From positions 62,001-126,000 of the forward strand of contig NZ_RBZW01000058.1 in assembly GCF_006543045.1 (NCBI RefSeq): 64,000 nucleotides of DNA, read 5' to 3'. The position numbers and the translations under genes were made by a program. Of this stretch, positions 21,523-27,181 are shown piece after piece. Under the pieces are notes generated by a model. That model was not told the DNA's origin. It saw only the letters and a program-made list of their open reading frames with translations, and searched no databases. Position 1 is the stretch's first letter. Every line of letters begins with the position of its first letter. Source of the stretch: Salinadaptatus halalkaliphilus (GTDB lineage Archaea > Halobacteriota > Halobacteria > Halobacteriales > Natrialbaceae).

Positions 21523-22470
21523 ATGAAAGGTCGTGCTGCTGCTCCTGCTGCTGGGACAATTCTTTGTGCGTTCGCAACAGGATACGGATCCGCGTTCGGT
21601 ATCGACAAATACGGGACTGCGACTGTAGAACTCGATAATTCTGGAACGGTTACGGGAGCGGTCAAAGGAAAATCCAACATCGATACGACGCTCATCGAAC
21701 GGTGCGCCGAACGTTGTATCGAACGGTTCGGAGACGGGGAAGGAGCGACCGTGACGACCGATAGTGATATTCCGATGGCCGCGGGCCTCAAATCCTCGAG
21801 CGTCGTCGCCAACGCGTCCGTACTGGCGACACTCGATGCGCTCGACGTTGCAATCCTCGATGCAACGACACAGAACGGCGTCCGGAGCGATGGTGGACAG
21901 CGACGTATCACCGGGCAAAACGACGCCACTAGCACCAACGACGCCGATCACTCGGTGACGATGCTAGAAGCAACTCGCATCGGCGTCAACGCAGCACGGG
22001 ATGCAAACGTCACCACGACCGGTGCGTTCGACGATGCGACGGCATCAATGTTCGGTGGTGTGACAGTGACAGATAATTCAGAAGACGAGCTCATTCAACG
22101 CGACACCATCGACTGGGATGTCCTGGTTTGGACGCCACCAAAACAGGCGTTCAGTTCCGAAGTCGATCACGATCGTTGTAAACAGTTGGCACCGGTTGCT
22201 GACGAAATACTCGACATGGTAGTAGAGGGGAGGTATAAGGAAGCGATGATGCTGAACGGATTTGCGTTTTGTACGGCGCTACGGTTTACTGCAGAACCGA
22301 TTCTCGAAGCGTTACCAGCGACGAAGGGCGTCTCTCTTTCTGGATCCGGACCGAGCTTTGTTGCCGTCGGCGAGCGAGAATCCCTCGAGTCGGTTAAAGA
22401 AAAGTGGGAGCTTCGCGAGGGGTCAGTCTGGTTTACGACGACGGTGGAAGACGGTGCACGAATCTTATGA
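21523..22470 (+). CDS. aroK: Archaeal shikimate kinase (GHMP type)
   Basis: 315 residues. GHMP kinase layout: an N-terminal RAAAPAAGTILCAFATGYGSAFGID, the phosphate-binding loop IPMAAGLKSSSVVANA, and the C-terminal motif VSLSGSGPSFVAVG. Archaea use this GHMP-family enzyme in place of bacterial AroK to phosphorylate shikimate. A loop of about 30 polar residues after the ATP loop (QNGVRSDGGQRRITGQ, then NDATSTNDAD) is longer than usual, and base usage is more AT-rich than in neighbours. aroD lies 590 bases downstream, convergent. In many haloarchaea chorismate mutase sits next to this gene; here it is 3.2 kb away in the opposite direction. Confidence 0.9.
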   Translation: MKGRAAAPAAGTILCAFATGYGSAFGIDKYGTATVELDNSGTVTGAVKGKSNIDTTLIERCAERCIERFGDGEGATVTTDSDIPMAAGLKSSSVVANASVLATLDALDVAILDATTQNGVRSDGGQRRITGQNDATSTNDADHSVTMLEATRIGVNAARDANVTTTGAFDDATASMFGGVTVTDNSEDELIQRDTIDWDVLVWTPPKQAFSSEVDHDRCKQLAPVADEILDMVVEGRYKEAMMLNGFAFCTALRFTAEPILEALPATKGVSLSGSGPSFVAVGERESLESVKEKWELREGSVWFTTTVEDGARIL

Positions 22471-23058
22471 ATACATGTTTGATTTGTGTCTTTCCCGGGA
22501 TTTTATCGAACATTGAAATTACCAGTTGAGAGAATCCATATTCGGTAGCTCGTCGAGATGTGCATCTGCCATGGTCCTCTGTGGAGTCCCGCACTCCTGT
22601 CGACTACTCTTCGTTCTCGCCGCTGAGATCGTCCATACAGCCGGCGAAACCAACGGTCGCTTCCGCACTGACTGCTTTCATGAACGTACATCGATTTCAG
22701 TAGCTACTTCCTGCATCAGTGTCTGCCATGCGCTATCTTCTCATCGCATCGCAGAGAATGTATTTTATAGTTGTGTCGGTTGGACAGATGTGCTCTGGTT
22801 GCATTCACGACCGACGCTGTTGGTAATACGGCGATGATCGATCGGTCACTGGAGTCGTTCGTGTTGTTGAAGGGATCTCGAACTAGCCGTTTCGTAACGA
22901 GGGATGGTTAGTAGTTGGTTCCCTGGGTTGGACGCCCGATCCCCATTCGAAGTCACTTTACTCACATATGGACTATTGTAATTCAGTGAGCGGGCTGCGG
23001 TCGATCGGAGAGAGCAGCGACCGAAAATACGGAGCAATGTGGCTGGTACTCGAGCGCA
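22471..23058. other. Intergenic region, no gene recognised
   Basis: 588 bases between the convergent aroK and aroD genes. Short open frames exist on both strands but have arginine/serine-rich, shadow-like content and no family resemblance. Two AT-rich patches (near 22750 and 22970) are present. Decayed DNA is possible. Confidence 0.4.
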
Positions 23059-23733
23059 TTATACGAGGTCGTCGGCGAGACGGCGGAGCGTCTCGATATC
23101 GTACTGGCCGGGTGCCGTTGCCTTCGTCGGGTCGACCGGTGCATATCCGATTGCGGAACCGTACGCGAACGCGACGGCCCGCGTGTGACCGCCGACAGCA
23201 CCCATCGACATGGTAGCGACCGTTTCACCACGTGAACTGTGTTTGTATGTCACCTCGAGGAGAGCGAGCGTATCATCGTAGTCGTCTGCTGTGACAGCGA
23301 GCTTGGCAACGTCGCCGTATTCGCCAGCGTCACGTAAGAGGCGACTCAGTTCGTCTGCGGGAGGTGTCTCCTCGAAGTTGTGCGTCGAAACGATAACCGA
23401 GACGTCCTGTTGCGATGCTGCCTCGAGTAGTTCGGTTCCGTCTCCGTCCTCGAGTGACGCCAGTTCGATGTCGACGGCTTCGACGTTGGGAGAATCGACT
23501 GCCGTGGTCAGCGTCTCGATCCGGTTTTCGTCAGGTGCCTCACCACCTTCCCACTCGGCGCGGTTCGTCACGATGAGAGGCAGGTCGCCGTCGTATTCGG
23601 CGAGGGCCTCGAGCGGAGAGTCGGCGAGGTCCATTCGGAACTCGATAGCGTCGGCGGACGGACGCGCATTCGGTTCCTCAGAGAGATCCGCTATCGCCGC
23701 AGCAAGCGTAAACGGCTCGAAATCGAGTGTCAT
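23059..23733 (-). CDS. aroD: Type I 3-dehydroquinate dehydratase
   Basis: 224 residues. Type I (Schiff-base) features: DAIEFRMDLADSPLE (EFRxD), the catalytic-base His in VIVSTHNFEETPP, the Schiff-base Lys in GDVAKLAVTADDYDD, and the substrate-binding end MSMGAVGGHTRAVAFAYGSAIGYAPVD. It converts 3-dehydroquinate to 3-dehydroshikimate. The ATG at 23733 begins the usual LDFEPFTLAA start; the longer frame to 23871 runs into the remnant insertion sequence. A TATA-like AATATTTATAT lies just upstream. Confidence 0.92.
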   Translation of the reverse strand: MTLDFEPFTLAAAIADLSEEPNARPSADAIEFRMDLADSPLEALAEYDGDLPLIVTNRAEWEGGEAPDENRIETLTTAVDSPNVEAVDIELASLEDGDGTELLEAASQQDVSVIVSTHNFEETPPADELSRLLRDAGEYGDVAKLAVTADDYDDTLALLEVTYKHSSRGETVATMSMGAVGGHTRAVAFAYGSAIGYAPVDPTKATAPGQYDIETLRRLADDLV

Positions 23734-23827
23734 ACCTGGACGAGTGGTGGTATAATATTTATATCTACTGTCGTCTGTACTGGCGGTGTTCAGATAAGGA
23801 TGAGGCGATTCGTTTTCTGAGTGATCT
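23734..23827. other. Promoter of aroD and possible left end of the IS6 remnant
   Basis: An AT-rich TATTTATATCTACTG precedes aroD. Next to it GGCGGTGTTCAGATAAGGAT at 23783-23802 resembles the terminal repeats of haloarchaeal IS6-family elements, but no matching right end was found. Confidence 0.35.
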
Positions 23828-24390
23828 ATGCCCGAAAACGACCGCCTCAACGGTTGTTTAGACGAGATCACCGTAGCGTTTGTTGAACAAGAAGCGACAC
23901 CGCGATTGCTAATGAAGCGCAGTATTTAGCTGCATCTTGCTGACTCTCGCTTTTGAATACTGTATCTATTATTGAGGTATTTGGTGTCGAACGCGCTCAG
24001 CCCACCGTTCACAATTGGGTTCTCATGGCCGACCTACAGCCCGGGTCTGGTCGGTGTCCGGATTACGTTTCGGTTGACGAAACTATAATCTAACTAAATA
24101 ATGAGCAGTATTGGCTGTACACTGCAGTCGATCCTGAGACTAACGAATTGTGCCATACAAAGCTTGAACCGACAACAGCAAAGGTACTCGCTCATTCGTT
24201 TCTGACGGAATTCTCCGAGAAACACGACATCTTCGACGCCGTGTTTTCCGTCGATGGATCGCACTCGTTACAAGATGCATGTCAGCGTCACGGCTTCGAT
24301 TTCAGATCCGAGCAACATGGAAATCGGAATGCTGTTGAACGTGTCCTTCGATATAAAACGACGGACTTTCTGTTTCTCAAACTTCTTTAG
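23828..24390 (+). pseudogene. IS6-family transposase remnant
   Basis: The first frame reads MPENDRLNGCLDEITVAFVE then QEATPRLLMKRSI and meets an in-frame TAG where the family has Gln (SIQLHL). Another frame resumes with QYWLYTAVDPETNELCHTKL, SEKHDIFDAVFSVDGSHSLQ and GFDFRSEQHGNRNAVERV. This is the wording of haloarchaeal IS6-type DDE transposases, in which the lost middle part carries the first Asp. At least one stop, several frameshifts and an internal deletion make it inactive. The right end is cut off near 24390, where another remnant begins. Confidence 0.8.
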
Positions 24391-24645
24391 CTGAAATAGA
24401 GGGCGCTAAGCCCTCGTCCGTAAGGAGCGAACAGAGCATAGCGACGGGGATACAGCGTTCACAAGAGCAAGCTCTTGTACAGCCCATCAGAACTTCGGTT
24501 CTGAGGACGCCCGCACGAGAACTCCGTTCTCGTGGATGCTGTGGATACGCTTTCCGTGTCTGCAAGTCGCGTCGTAGAAGCAGGAAGCTCCGTCCTCAAG
24601 GAACGAACGGCGCAAGCCGTGAGTGAGTAGGGCGGAGTAGTTCAC
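24391..24645 (+). pseudogene. IS200/IS605-family tnpB 3' end remnant with right end
   Basis: The last codons before the TAG at 24628-24630 read VDAVDTLSVSASRVVEAGSS then VLKERTAQAVSE, a typical C-terminus of haloarchaeal TnpB proteins (IS1341-type). Upstream the frame is broken by stops. The stretch after the stop (GGCGGAGTAGTTCAC) resembles the right end of such elements. In intact elements this 3' region also encodes the guide (omega/re) RNA, so a relic of that RNA is possible here. No upstream nuclease part remains. Confidence 0.65.
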
Positions 24646-24695
24646 GAGATAGAGTATCTAAGACGTGTGTTTTAAATCCTACCGATTCTCTCGCT

Positions 24696-24711
24696 GCTCA
24701 ACTTTGTTCAG
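24696..24711. repeat. Direct repeat, left copy (att-like)
   Basis: GCTCAACTTTGTTCAG. The right copy at 25706-25721 differs at one base and forms part of the chorismate mutase 3' end (codons for LNKVEQ on the minus strand). The two copies bracket about 1 kb containing the toxin-antitoxin genes. Confidence 0.55.
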
Positions 24712-24802
24712 GTAGATGAAATCCATGGTACGAGTCACAGAAAATATCTGCCGTGGGTAATAGTGGGCAACACTTATTCAGCAGTGGGTCCAAGTCGGTA
24801 AC

Positions 24803-25042
24803 ATGACGAAAGTAGATGCTCGGGACCTACGAACTAACGAGACCGATGATCGAGGTCGAATCTATCTCGGAACGGAGTACGCGAACAAGCGTGTGACCGT
24901 CGCCGTTGTTGAGGTAGAATCTGACCATCCCAACGAAGATGAACTGGCTGCTGCGTACCGCGAGGCATCTGAGAGTGCGGAAGAGCTTGCAGAAGAGTGG
25001 GACGAAGCATCGGACGAGGCGTGGGACAGGCTGGATAAATGA
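24803..25042 (+). CDS. Antitoxin of a MazEF-like pair (AbrB-like N-terminus)
   Basis: 79 residues, acidic. The first half has the short strand pattern of swapped-hairpin AbrB/MazE-type antitoxins (TDDRGRIYLGTEYANKRVTV). The second half is an acidic helix rich in Glu and Asp (SAEELAEEWDEASDEAWDRL), fit to occupy the toxin's RNA-binding groove. Its stop overlaps the toxin start by four bases (ATGA), the usual coupling. A TATA-like ACTTATTC lies about 30 bases before the ATG. Family naming is by context and pattern. Confidence 0.65.
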   Translation: MTKVDARDLRTNETDDRGRIYLGTEYANKRVTVAVVEVESDHPNEDELAAAYREASESAEELAEEWDEASDEAWDRLDK

Positions 25043-25392
25043 GCGAGGACTCGGAAATTCGTCGCGGCGACGTTGTTATCGTTCGACTCGATCCTGCGGA
25101 AGGGCACGAAATGAAGAAAACTCGCCCTGCGGTAGTCGTCCAGAACGACGTTGGGAATAACAATGCTAGCACGACTATCGTTGCACCCGCGACGGGGACA
25201 TATCGGGGCTATCCGTTCGAGGTTCTCGTTGAAGCAGCGGAGTCGCCGTTCGAGAAGGATTCCTCGATTCGCCTCGATCAAATTCGTGTCGTCTCCATCG
25301 AAAAACGGATTCACTCGGTGCTTGGGAGTCTCGACAGAGAGTCGGTGGAGGCAGTGGACGAAGCGTTGAAACTGAGTCTCGGACTGGACTGA
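25039..25392 (+). CDS. MazF/PemK-type toxin endoribonuclease
   Basis: 117 residues. MazF/PemK fold signatures: RRGDVVIVRLDPAEGHEMKK, the conserved TRPAVVVQND strand, TTIVAPATG, a central GYPFEVLVEA, and SSIRLDQIRVVSIEKRI near the end. Such toxins cut single-stranded RNA at short motifs and are held inactive by the upstream antitoxin. The gene overlaps the antitoxin gene by four bases. The pair lies in an island between insertion-sequence remnants and chorismate mutase. Poly-T runs (GGCCTTTTTAGCG and GATTTTTCG) at 25480-25510 may end transcription. Confidence 0.85.
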   Translation: MSEDSEIRRGDVVIVRLDPAEGHEMKKTRPAVVVQNDVGNNNASTTIVAPATGTYRGYPFEVLVEAAESPFEKDSSIRLDQIRVVSIEKRIHSVLGSLDRESVEAVDEALKLSLGLD

Positions 25393-25626
25393 CGTATCTG
25401 CTGTGATCAGTATAGGCTGAGGCGTTACCGCTGCGGTCGTGATGCAAGCAGTGCACCCGCGAGCGACCAACGGGAGCGAGCGGCCTTTTTAGCGTAGATT
25501 TTTCGAGGAGCGGTGAGCGAGCAACGCGAGCGAACCCGACGAGAAAAAGGTACGTATGCACGTGTAGTGTCCGCTGGTTCTGGTGATCGGTCTACTGCTC
25601 AATCCGTTCAACACAAACCAACTGAA

Positions 25627-25641
25627 CAGCAGCCGGAAGAT
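25627..25641. repeat. Relic of the chorismate mutase 3' end
   Basis: CAGCAGCCGGAAGAT is identical to 25728-25742 inside the chorismate mutase gene (codons for IFRLL on the minus strand). The surrounding bases (CTCAATCCGTTCAACAC) resemble the end of the same gene with changes, so this is a decayed partial duplication. Confidence 0.5.
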
Positions 25642-25688
25642 TTCTAATCGCTTATTAGCGCTACACGCGCTTAGAAACCCGATTAGTG

Positions 25689-26006
25689 CTATCTAGTGTT
25701 CCTTTGCTCAACCTTGTTCAGTTCGATCAGCAGCCGGAAGATCGCCTTGACGAGATTCGCGTCGACATCGAACTGTTCGGCGTTTTCGCCAGCCCGATCC
25801 ATCACCTGTTGTTCTTGGCTTTCGTCGGTCGTCGGCAGATCCTGCTCGGCTTTGACCTGGGCGATCGTGTCCGCGACGTAGGTTCGCTGGGCGATCAGTT
25901 CGACGATTTCGCGATCGATCGTTTCGATCTCCTCGCGCAGTTCGTCCAGACTCATCTCGTCCGGCGTCCGATTCCCCGTGCCGTCTGTAGCGGTCTCTCG
26001 AGTCAT
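25689..26006 (-). CDS. AroQ-type chorismate mutase
   Basis: 105 residues. The all-helical AroQ pattern is seen in SLDELREEIETIDREIVELIAQRTYVADTIAQVK (first helix with the catalytic Arg and Lys positions), DESQEQQVMDRAGENAEQF, and the last helix ANLVKAIFRLLIELNKVEQ. It converts chorismate to prephenate for Phe and Tyr synthesis. The ATG at 26006 gives an acidic 17-residue lead before the fold. Its last codons coincide with the right copy of a 16-base direct repeat that also occurs 1 kb downstream, beyond the toxin-antitoxin pair, which suggests insertion at this 3' end. Confidence 0.88.
   Translation of the reverse strand: MTRETATDGTGNRTPDEMSLDELREEIETIDREIVELIAQRTYVADTIAQVKAEQDLPTTDESQEQQVMDRAGENAEQFDVDANLVKAIFRLLIELNKVEQRNTR
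25706..25721. repeat. Direct repeat, right copy (att-like)
   Basis: GCTCAACCTTGTTCAG, 15 of 16 identical to 24696-24711. It lies in the last codons of the chorismate mutase gene. Confidence 0.55.
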
Positions 26007-26426
26007 GTCGTATGTGTGTCGTCCGTTCGCATCGTCAGTAATCGTCTCGCTCCGCCGCGGTCGTCCCCCAGTCGTAGCCTCCTCGAGCGGGATGGAGTCG
26101 AACGCCGGCCCTGATCGCAAACGCATTCAGGATCGATCCGGCTGCTGGCGCGACGGCGCGGCCGTCCATACGGAACCACTCTCAGACCGCGTATTTACGG
26201 CTGACGGTATCACCGAGCGGGCTGCGATGGACCCTTTCGCACTGACTCGAGCAGGCCGTAGAGCACGTATCGGCGTACTCGCGGCTGATGTGGGAGTGGT
26301 TCCGGAGCCGTCCGTTCTGGCGAAAGCCGCGAGATCCAAAGACCTGCATGGAGGTCGTTGTCCTCGAACGGCGCCTACGTCGTTGGGAACGTACCGTTTT
26401 TCCCCGATCCGAACGAACGGACCACT
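26007..26426. other. Intergenic region, no gene recognised
   Basis: 420 bases between the divergent chorismate mutase and DUF5796 genes. Long antisense frames exist but have shadow-type composition. Promoters for both neighbours must lie here; no clear repeat or RNA was found. Confidence 0.4.
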
Positions 26427-26927
26427 ATGAGTGCACGCAGTAACGTCGCCCCGAGTACGATCGGCGTCGATCTCGTCGATGGCGGAGTCGTCGTCGAGTA
26501 TCTCGACGGTCGTGAGGTTTTTTACCACGGGCCGCCGGATCCGGTCGCGGAGTCGCTGACGACGCCGCCTGGCAAGCACGTCCACGTTCTCGTCACCGAT
26601 CCCGACGGGATCGAGGGGGTCATGACCTATGTCAACGACCGCGACACCCACGACGACATTCTCGAGACGACCGGCGTCGGTCGGGTCATGCTCGAGGAAG
26701 ACGACGAGGAGGTGCTGTATCCTGGGGTCACCGTCTCGACGGCAGCGTATTCGATCCGGGTCGAGGCCGACCTCGAGGTCGTCGACGGTCGGGTGTTCGT
26801 CTTCGCAGAAGACGAGATGAGCGAACACGCCTACGAACTCGTCGCCCCCGAAACCGTCGACGAGCAGTCGGCTTCGGGCGGTCTCGACGATGAGAGCTCC
26901 ACCGCTGACGATACCGCTGGGGTGTGA
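26427..26927 (+). CDS. DUF5796 family protein
   Basis: 166 residues, strongly acidic. The family pattern appears in STIGVDLVDGGVVVEYLDGREVFYHGPP, PGKHVHVLVTDPDGIEGVMTYVNDR, and GVGRVMLEEDDEEVLYPGVTV. It is a mostly beta-strand protein limited to haloarchaea, of unknown function. An acidic, low-complexity tail follows residue 140. The ATG at 26427 is directly before the conserved part. The next gene overlaps or follows within eight bases, so the two are probably co-transcribed. Confidence 0.82.
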   Translation: MSARSNVAPSTIGVDLVDGGVVVEYLDGREVFYHGPPDPVAESLTTPPGKHVHVLVTDPDGIEGVMTYVNDRDTHDDILETTGVGRVMLEEDDEEVLYPGVTVSTAAYSIRVEADLEVVDGRVFVFAEDEMSEHAYELVAPETVDEQSASGGLDDESSTADDTAGV

Positions 26928-26935
26928 TCGAGTCG

Positions 26936-27181
26936 ATGCCACTCCAGAAATCCTGGCAATCCCTCGACCGCGAGACCGTCTCGAGCGTCCCCGACCGACC
27001 CGGCGTCTACGAACTTGGCGACGAGTCGGGGACGGTAGTCTCGATCGATTACGGTCCGTTGCAGGACGACCTCAAGAGCGCGCTGGCATACGGCGACGAC
27101 GACCGTGTTCGCTGGACGACGACCCACACTATCGAGCAGGCCCGCGAGCTCGCCGCCGAGCATCGCGACCGACTCGAGTGA
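26936..27181 (+). CDS. Small haloarchaeal protein with a GIY-YIG-like opening
   Basis: 81 residues. The start (WQSLDRETVSSVPDRPGVYELGDESGTVVSIDYG) resembles the first strands of GIY-YIG domains (xxPGVYxLxDxxGxVxYIG), but the usual Tyr and catalytic Arg region is incomplete. The end (TTTHTIEQARELAAEHRDRLE) is helical. Relatives of this length are common in haloarchaea; no activity is known. The ATG at 26936 was chosen; a GTG at 26924 would overlap the stop of the DUF5796 gene. Confidence 0.65.
   Translation: MPLQKSWQSLDRETVSSVPDRPGVYELGDESGTVVSIDYGPLQDDLKSALAYGDDDRVRWTTTHTIEQARELAAEHRDRLE

Follow-up and report, generated by a model that had tools for sequence, protein, structure and literature searches.

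Tandem toxin–antitoxin and other gene cassettes behind the chorismate mutase gene of Halobacteria: a probable site-specific capture array

The window analysed here is a 64-kb stretch of the Salinadaptatus halalkaliphilus genome. Its minus strand carries a chorismate mutase gene (CM; 25689–26006; PF01817 CM_2, E = 3.8e-20; conserved neighbour DUF5796), which we regard as a landing platform and whose last 33 nt appear to be a recombination site. Adjoining the end of this gene is a MazEF cassette of 1010 bp from crossover to crossover (24711–25720, minus strand), a type that recurs in 18 of the 88 cassettes described below. The cassette contains a gene for a 117-aa MazF/PemK toxin (25039–25392, plus strand; PF02452, E = 4.2e-30) and, upstream of it with a 4-nt overlap, a gene for a 79-aa antitoxin (24803–25042, plus strand), which had no Pfam match and was assigned by position and by its conservation in 14 cassettes. 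Both genes are convergent with CM. An earlier note, made from the sequence alone, had placed a MazEF-like pair between repeats at this position, and our searches agree; the gene layout fits a type II toxin–antitoxin (TA) module, in which neutralisation of the toxin is predicted.

The same note had reported two 16-mers as the flanking repeats. Both are present where it put them (24696–24711 and 25706–25721), one mismatch apart and with no further copy in the 64 kb at up to three mismatches, and the right copy indeed comprises the LNKVEQ codons of CM. By itself this pair is weak evidence, since 8 of 100 shuffled controls likewise gave two matches at ≤3 mismatches. The left repeat is, in addition, longer than first claimed, being a displaced CM gene end of 33 nt that runs in the direction of the gene and closes with the stop codon. 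Read in the direction of CM (minus strand), the gene-end core is CTGAACAAGGTTGAGCAAAGGAACACTAGATAG (25689–25721; tail LNKVEQRNTR plus stop), its right half being supplied by the MazEF cassette, and the displaced core, which contains the left 16-mer, is CTGAACAAAGTTGAGCAGCGAGAGAATCGGTAG (24679–24711; LNKVEQRENR plus stop). The repeat pair is above chance, because the left copy extends to this 33-nt CM end and the 33-mer pattern had no match besides these two anywhere in the 4.52-Mb genome when up to three mismatches were allowed (reversed-pattern controls, 0). A chance likeness of the two 16-mers, for which the shuffles speak, is hardly credible in view of this uniqueness, the identical architecture at 53 of 81 loci and the empty and filled pairs presented below.

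Other parts of the cassette recur elsewhere as well. Alignment of 14 cassette ends delimited a conserved gene-proximal end of MazEF cassettes (25579–25688, minus strand). It contains a CM-like 18-mer (25624–25641, repeat D7) that might have been a third CM end of independent origin; we rejected this, as the 18-mer is a conserved part of these cassettes. An Rfam search of 23000–27000 of the window at E 0.1 returned no match. The segment 25392–25589 inside the cassette is a dispersed non-coding repeat that occurs at five places in the window genome, including a tandem pair; it has unannotated copies on many haloarchaeal plasmids and is mostly missing from most MazEF cassettes of relatives.

On the far side of the displaced core lies what seems to be the stub of a second, VapBC-type cassette (24647–24678, minus strand): 28 of the 32 nt after the core are identical to the first 32 nt of a cassette of Natronorubrum halalkaliphilum (L069), whose name, second VapBC type, was assigned by eye. 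Beyond the stub the array is cut by an apparent TnpB-type element 3′ end and an ISH29-like relic, and the window array is therefore most likely a truncated two-cassette array. The first of these segments (24391–24646) matches sequence from the 3′ parts of TnpB-type transposon elements, itself lacks a tnpB gene and is possibly a solo guide-RNA-like remnant; the second (23782–24391) is an IS6-type relic resembling ISH29/ISH15 with a broken transposase frame. Still further along, at about 3 kb from CM (segment 25689–26942), is a shikimate-kinase-like ORF (21523–22470, recognised by eye). Shikimate kinase is located directly upstream of CM in six annotated relatives, so the shikimate kinase–CM operon seems to have been split in the window genome. 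In many Natrialbaceae (L153–L158) this pair resides on a secondary replicon of 160–400 kb, not on the main chromosome.

We surveyed CM gene ends with a weight matrix trained on loci L031–L050 and the window, some of which come from the same genomes as the 80 named loci that, together with the window, make up our count sample of 81. In the 21 training loci, further copies of the gene end were found 0.75–6 kb downstream, frequently several in tandem. Globally, at a score >18, 53 of the 81 loci carried displaced gene ends, 27 carried none and one (L117, omitted from the site statistics) had no core. The 53 positive loci had one (28 loci), two (17), three (6) or four (2) displaced copies, amounting to 88 cassettes, and without exception the displaced ends lay downstream of the gene and pointed the same way. 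Two loci of one Halorubrum salinum strain (L083 and L087) with identical cores were both counted; their flanks are identical as printed too, and Halosimplex aquaticum likewise has two CM loci (L093/L097). A further set, L131–L150, served for integrase searches only and stands outside the counts. At a score >25, 47 of the 80 named loci were still positive, with 76 displaced copies. Lowering the threshold to >12 gave 175 matches in 1.50 Mb, all of them on the strand of CM and none on the other (controls: reversed matrix 0, complement-only 6). Displaced copies were seen in Natrinema, Natronorubrum, Natrialba, Natronococcus, Halorubrum, Halorussus, Haladaptatus, Haloarcula, Halococcus and others. 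An independent count, made with an IUPAC pattern at up to two mismatches, gave matches in 112 of the 125 family genomes and in 228 of the 293 genomes at order level, many of these matches being the CM gene end itself; the reversed pattern was absent among the matches listed.

The earlier note had suggested a minimal island borne by a TA pair. Its site-specific insertion holds, and its solitude does not: the window unit is one cassette of an array system that is spread over Halobacteria and holds several TA families as well as genes of other kinds. At a single platform, marked by a site that recurs, cassettes with one or two genes stand in tandem (88 cassettes, 53 of 81 loci). The CM tail LNKV is kept in 78 of 80 gene ends (the other two read LNKI and LNKA), and 69 of the 88 displaced copies read as an intact tail plus stop. 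Gene ends supplied by cassettes would explain CM C-termini that vary with the neighbouring cassette. Cores with the left arm that we call type I below were also noticed far from CM in four genomes (L185 in G171, L188 in G326, L192 in G338 and L194 in G309), the distance being 1.1 Mb in G171 and 26.5 kb (downstream) in G309, with the core of G338 on another contig; these may be rearranged arrays or secondary sites. The 26.5-kb inter-core interval of G309 was considered as an autonomous element and dismissed, as it is without an integrase.

Integration at the 3′ end of CM with restoration of the gene end, as the earlier note had proposed, predicts a single gene-end copy in genomes without a cassette, and this was the state of the 27 single-copy loci. 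A precise empty and filled pair is provided by Natrinema gari (L077), which has no cassette, and N. pallidum (L092), which has two. Their alignment runs unbroken to +19 of the core and picks up at −6 of the last displaced core, which identifies the overlap of about 25 nt as the duplicated site. Other pairs differ by one additional AbrB-PIN cassette (L107 vs L112), three additional cassettes (L070 vs L068) or two (L056 vs L055, with the flank behind the core 99.2% identical over 600 nt). In three of the four pairs that were informative, the extra cassettes lay on the gene-proximal side; in L101 vs L112 they were internal. Gain and loss are unpolarised in these comparisons.

The intervals of the 88 cassettes have a median length of 892 bp (276–5805 bp). 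About 57 are single TA modules (MazEF, RHH-ParE/RelE, AbrB-PIN or VapBC), a tally resting on clusters of mechanically called ORFs, which give 58; by eye, L074_c2 is a false member and L129_c1, outside the clusters, is PIN-pair-like, which puts the number at 57–58. By cluster, MazF was found in 18 cassettes (14 with MazE), RelE-type toxins in 16 (15 with an RHH partner), AbrB plus PIN in 11, VapBC in 5, a second VapB type in 5 and a further PIN cluster in 3 (one of them false), and 30 of the 88 cassettes fell into none of the TA clusters. Pfam searches of the cluster representatives supported ParE_toxin, PIN and VAPB_antitox, with no match for the RHH, second VapB and MazE-like antitoxins and a sub-threshold MraZ match only for AbrB. 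Each cassette family keeps to one strand, as exemplified by AbrB (11 of 11 ORFs) and MazE (14 of 14 ORFs). The non-TA cassettes encode transporters (for example Nramp, PHO4 and NicO), oxidases (a berberine-bridge-type enzyme), hydrolases (an alpha/beta hydrolase) and regulators, as well as an AhpC/TSA protein and a metallo-beta-lactamase-fold protein. In the annotation of a plasmid collection, Haloterrigena alkaliphila has four TA-like pairs consecutively behind CM and Natronorubrum bangense has AbrB-PIN, RHH-RelE and PemK modules; Natronorubrum aibiense shows the identical downstream gene set without TA modules.

Comparison of the toxins with the CM bodies of their hosts suggests exchange superimposed on inheritance, as judged from pair counts and rank correlations. 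The toxins were more alike than CM in 75 of 105 pairs for RelE, 37 of 55 for AbrB-PIN, 6 of 10 for VapC and 63 of 153 for MazF, and the Spearman coefficients between toxin and CM were 0.30 (RelE), 0.31 (PIN), 0.85 (VapC) and 0.54 (MazF). MazF and VapC are the least clear; given the 63 of 153 pairs, recent transfer of MazF is not general, the most discordant pair being L061 and L108 (toxin 96.4%, CM 81.2%).

Where the exchange takes place within the site can be read from its two halves: each right half moves together with the cassette that follows it, and the left half remains with the sequence in front. We counted linked pairs of polymorphic positions at p < 0.01, with related sites taken as independent. 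In displaced sites, linkage was found for 152 of 276 left–left, 14 of 78 right–right and 5 of 312 left–right pairs (about 3 expected); at gene ends for 4 of 45, 21 of 91 and 5 of 140; and over all sites for 224 of 253, 22 of 66 and 14 of 276, respectively. The invariant 7-mer TGAACAA, itself below the polymorphism cut-off, lies at this break (in the window at 25714–25720 at the gene and 24704–24710 in the displaced site, both minus strand). It is also the centre of the best dyad among all placements (10-nt arms, spacers of 4–9 nt) in both site classes, with 6.69 of 10 positions complementary at gene ends (placement mean 2.47, sd 0.90) and 5.17 of 10 in displaced sites (mean 2.46, sd 0.48); a spacer of 5 nt ranks first and one of 7 nt second. 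There are thus strong hints, short of proof, that the crossover sits in TGAACAA, because related sites were counted as independent and the left arm at the gene is coding, so that the dyad there could be partly coincidental. The left arms of unrelated cassettes are of two main types by consensus made by eye, ATGGATTTYATCTAY and TGTAACRTSAGT..GAC; the window cassette has type I (..CCATGGATTTCATCTAC; 24712–24733, minus strand). An overlap of 5–8 nt between inverted arms, a feature of att sites, is accordingly present, on the correlative evidence of linkage break and dyad. A break at TGAACAA that coincides with a dyad centre would be the trace expected of a site-specific, tyrosine-type recombinase.

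Homologous or microhomology recombination on the ~33-nt repeats, by RadA or end joining, would do without a dedicated recombinase, and any DNA bearing a CM end could then bring in cassettes. The lack of an integrase in the cassettes, a common stretch of about 25–33 nt and TA gene histories that are often inherited, not exchanged, all agree with this. We nevertheless think it rather unlikely, as the crossover is limited to the 7-mer despite homology that reaches further right, left arms shared by unrelated cassettes would not be required, and the inserts are short and all direct.

For site-specific recombination, candidate enzymes were sought with PF00589, which marked 8–18 places per genome in ten genomes (8 in the window's own); none of the matches listed for these ten genomes was inside an array, the nearest downstream being about 20 and 32 kb off. 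An integrase motif expression gave a single, spurious match, and we adopted instead an HMM built from PF00589-type genes, which recovers its test integrase regions. This HMM had no match within any cassette of the named loci, no integrase gene was found inside an integrated CM unit, and no IntI-type integrase was found beside an array of the named loci. In three of the 80 named loci an integrase gene lies within 10 kb downstream of CM, outside cassettes: Natrarchaeobius (L061; 13666–14706), beyond the last core, and Halolamina pelagica (L095; 10948–12150) and Haloarcula vallismortis (L125; 11349–12470), both without displaced cores. These integrases belong to two unrelated families and have no flanking cores; they are leads for the array recombinase. 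The family of L061 and L125 was examined as a universal recombinase and set aside, since its presence in 34 of 41 genomes, at 1–8 places each, is too general to decide. In Haloterrigena alkaliphila an integrase is located about 11 kb upstream of CM. A ~760-aa ORF with an integrase domain, common to many genomes, was rejected as the recombinase because by eye it is a Bat-type regulator. Large proteins with a phage-integrase domain first and Bat-like regulator parts behind were seen in L159 (1866–4148), L160 (401–2602) and many relatives, and a PF00589+BAT family is named in a passage of an archaeal integrase review (PMC8371274).

The cassettes might also descend from a conventional integrative element, whether a virus, a plasmid or an island, that sat at the end of CM, decayed and lost its integrase but kept the TA pair. 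Restoration of a gene end is typical of integrases, and the three loci with an integrase downstream of CM fit such a history. The ~1-kb MazEF unit is, however, intact in 18 cassettes and at many array positions, the site was found in 0 viral contigs, the MazEF cassette matched no phage record, and the adjoining integrases are of unrelated families and not bounded by cores, all of which makes this origin improbable.

We therefore consider it likely that the MazEF cassette of the window is one unit of a gene-cassette array that has its anchor at the 3′ end of CM and was assembled by site-specific capture. Precise insertion, repeated arrays, one crossover interval, the dyad, fixed family orientation and the restored tail are read from sequence; the cassette circle and a tyrosine recombinase encoded elsewhere are inferred. 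As no integrase lies inside the cassettes, this enzyme would act in trans. A cassette would be a short DNA circle with one site, in which a left arm specific to the cassette is followed by TGAACAA as the 7-bp overlap and then by a stretch encoding the last CM residues and the stop. By recombining with the gene end, this site would bring in the cassette, provide the gene with a new last ~25 nt that preserve the protein tail and shift the old gene end downstream, where it would become the next boundary; successive rounds would build the array. That most cassettes carry TA genes is probably due to addiction, in which a cell that loses the pair is punished, an explanation proposed earlier for superintegrons.

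Integrons account for gene collecting in many bacteria, and haloarchaea exchange genes widely. To our knowledge, no cassette system has been described as such for haloarchaea, and we found no description of cassettes at the haloarchaeal CM end in the openly licensed literature. Integration by elements of the SSV, pNOB8 and SNJ2 types restores the target gene end, as at CM. According to passages of the archaeal integrase review (PMC8371274), these elements use tyrosine recombinases, as we suppose for CM cassettes, but they carry their own integrase and are single and large, whereas CM cassettes are about 0.9 kb and tandem. The pdif (dif) modules of Acinetobacter plasmids are moved by the host XerCD and, in the parts of the two sources considered (PMC13141974, PMC6449649), resemble CM cassettes in being small, often TA-bearing, bounded by short sites and without a recombinase of their own. 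CM sites differ from pdif sites in that they never alternate (175 on one strand, 0 on the other), are centred on TGAACAA and are anchored at one gene end.

Likeness is also evident to integrons and CALINs, including archaeal integrons, which in sections of PMC9668308 share with CM arrays small tandem cassettes, a single type of repeated site, a single place of landing, frequent TA modules and arrays without a neighbouring integrase. On the same sections, CM arrays differ in having no IntI and no conserved attC core, in a site that is the CM coding end and is rebuilt, in many cassette genes that run opposite to the platform gene, and in their occurrence in isolates across Halobacteria. We weighed whether they could be classical integrons (CALINs) with overlooked attC sites. 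Small, TA-rich, integrase-less tandem cassettes would fit, and an attC-type 7-mer (RYYYAAC or GTTRRRY) occurs in 22 of 88 sites compared with 3.6 after shuffling. Yet 13 of these 22 are the core itself with T at the wobble base, both 7-mers are absent from the other 66 sites, and the site is the end of a protein-coding gene. A folded, attC-like cassette end was likewise discarded: the MazEF cassette ends show neither covariation nor compensatory pairs, and most of the 7-mer excess is the core. We accordingly rate a classical integron as very improbable.

With no integrase in the cassettes, no conserved attC core and sites that are all direct, CM arrays are neither classical integrons nor pdif modules. 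If a trans-acting recombinase is confirmed, they would give haloarchaea a platform for capturing genes, supply a 7-bp crossover site of known sequence on which genetic tools could be built, and allow the question whether TA pairs can themselves be the mobile unit to be tested in a natural setting. What we have found looks like a system that works like an integron without being a member of that group, its recombinase being of another kind. On balance, we lean towards the view that Halobacteria have a native gene-cassette capture system of a third kind that does not depend on IntI and attC, in which the end of a biosynthetic gene is the platform, each cassette supplies replacement C-terminal codons, so that insertion would be nearly silent, and a dedicated recombinase encoded elsewhere takes up TA and adaptive genes, stacks them and trades them across genera.
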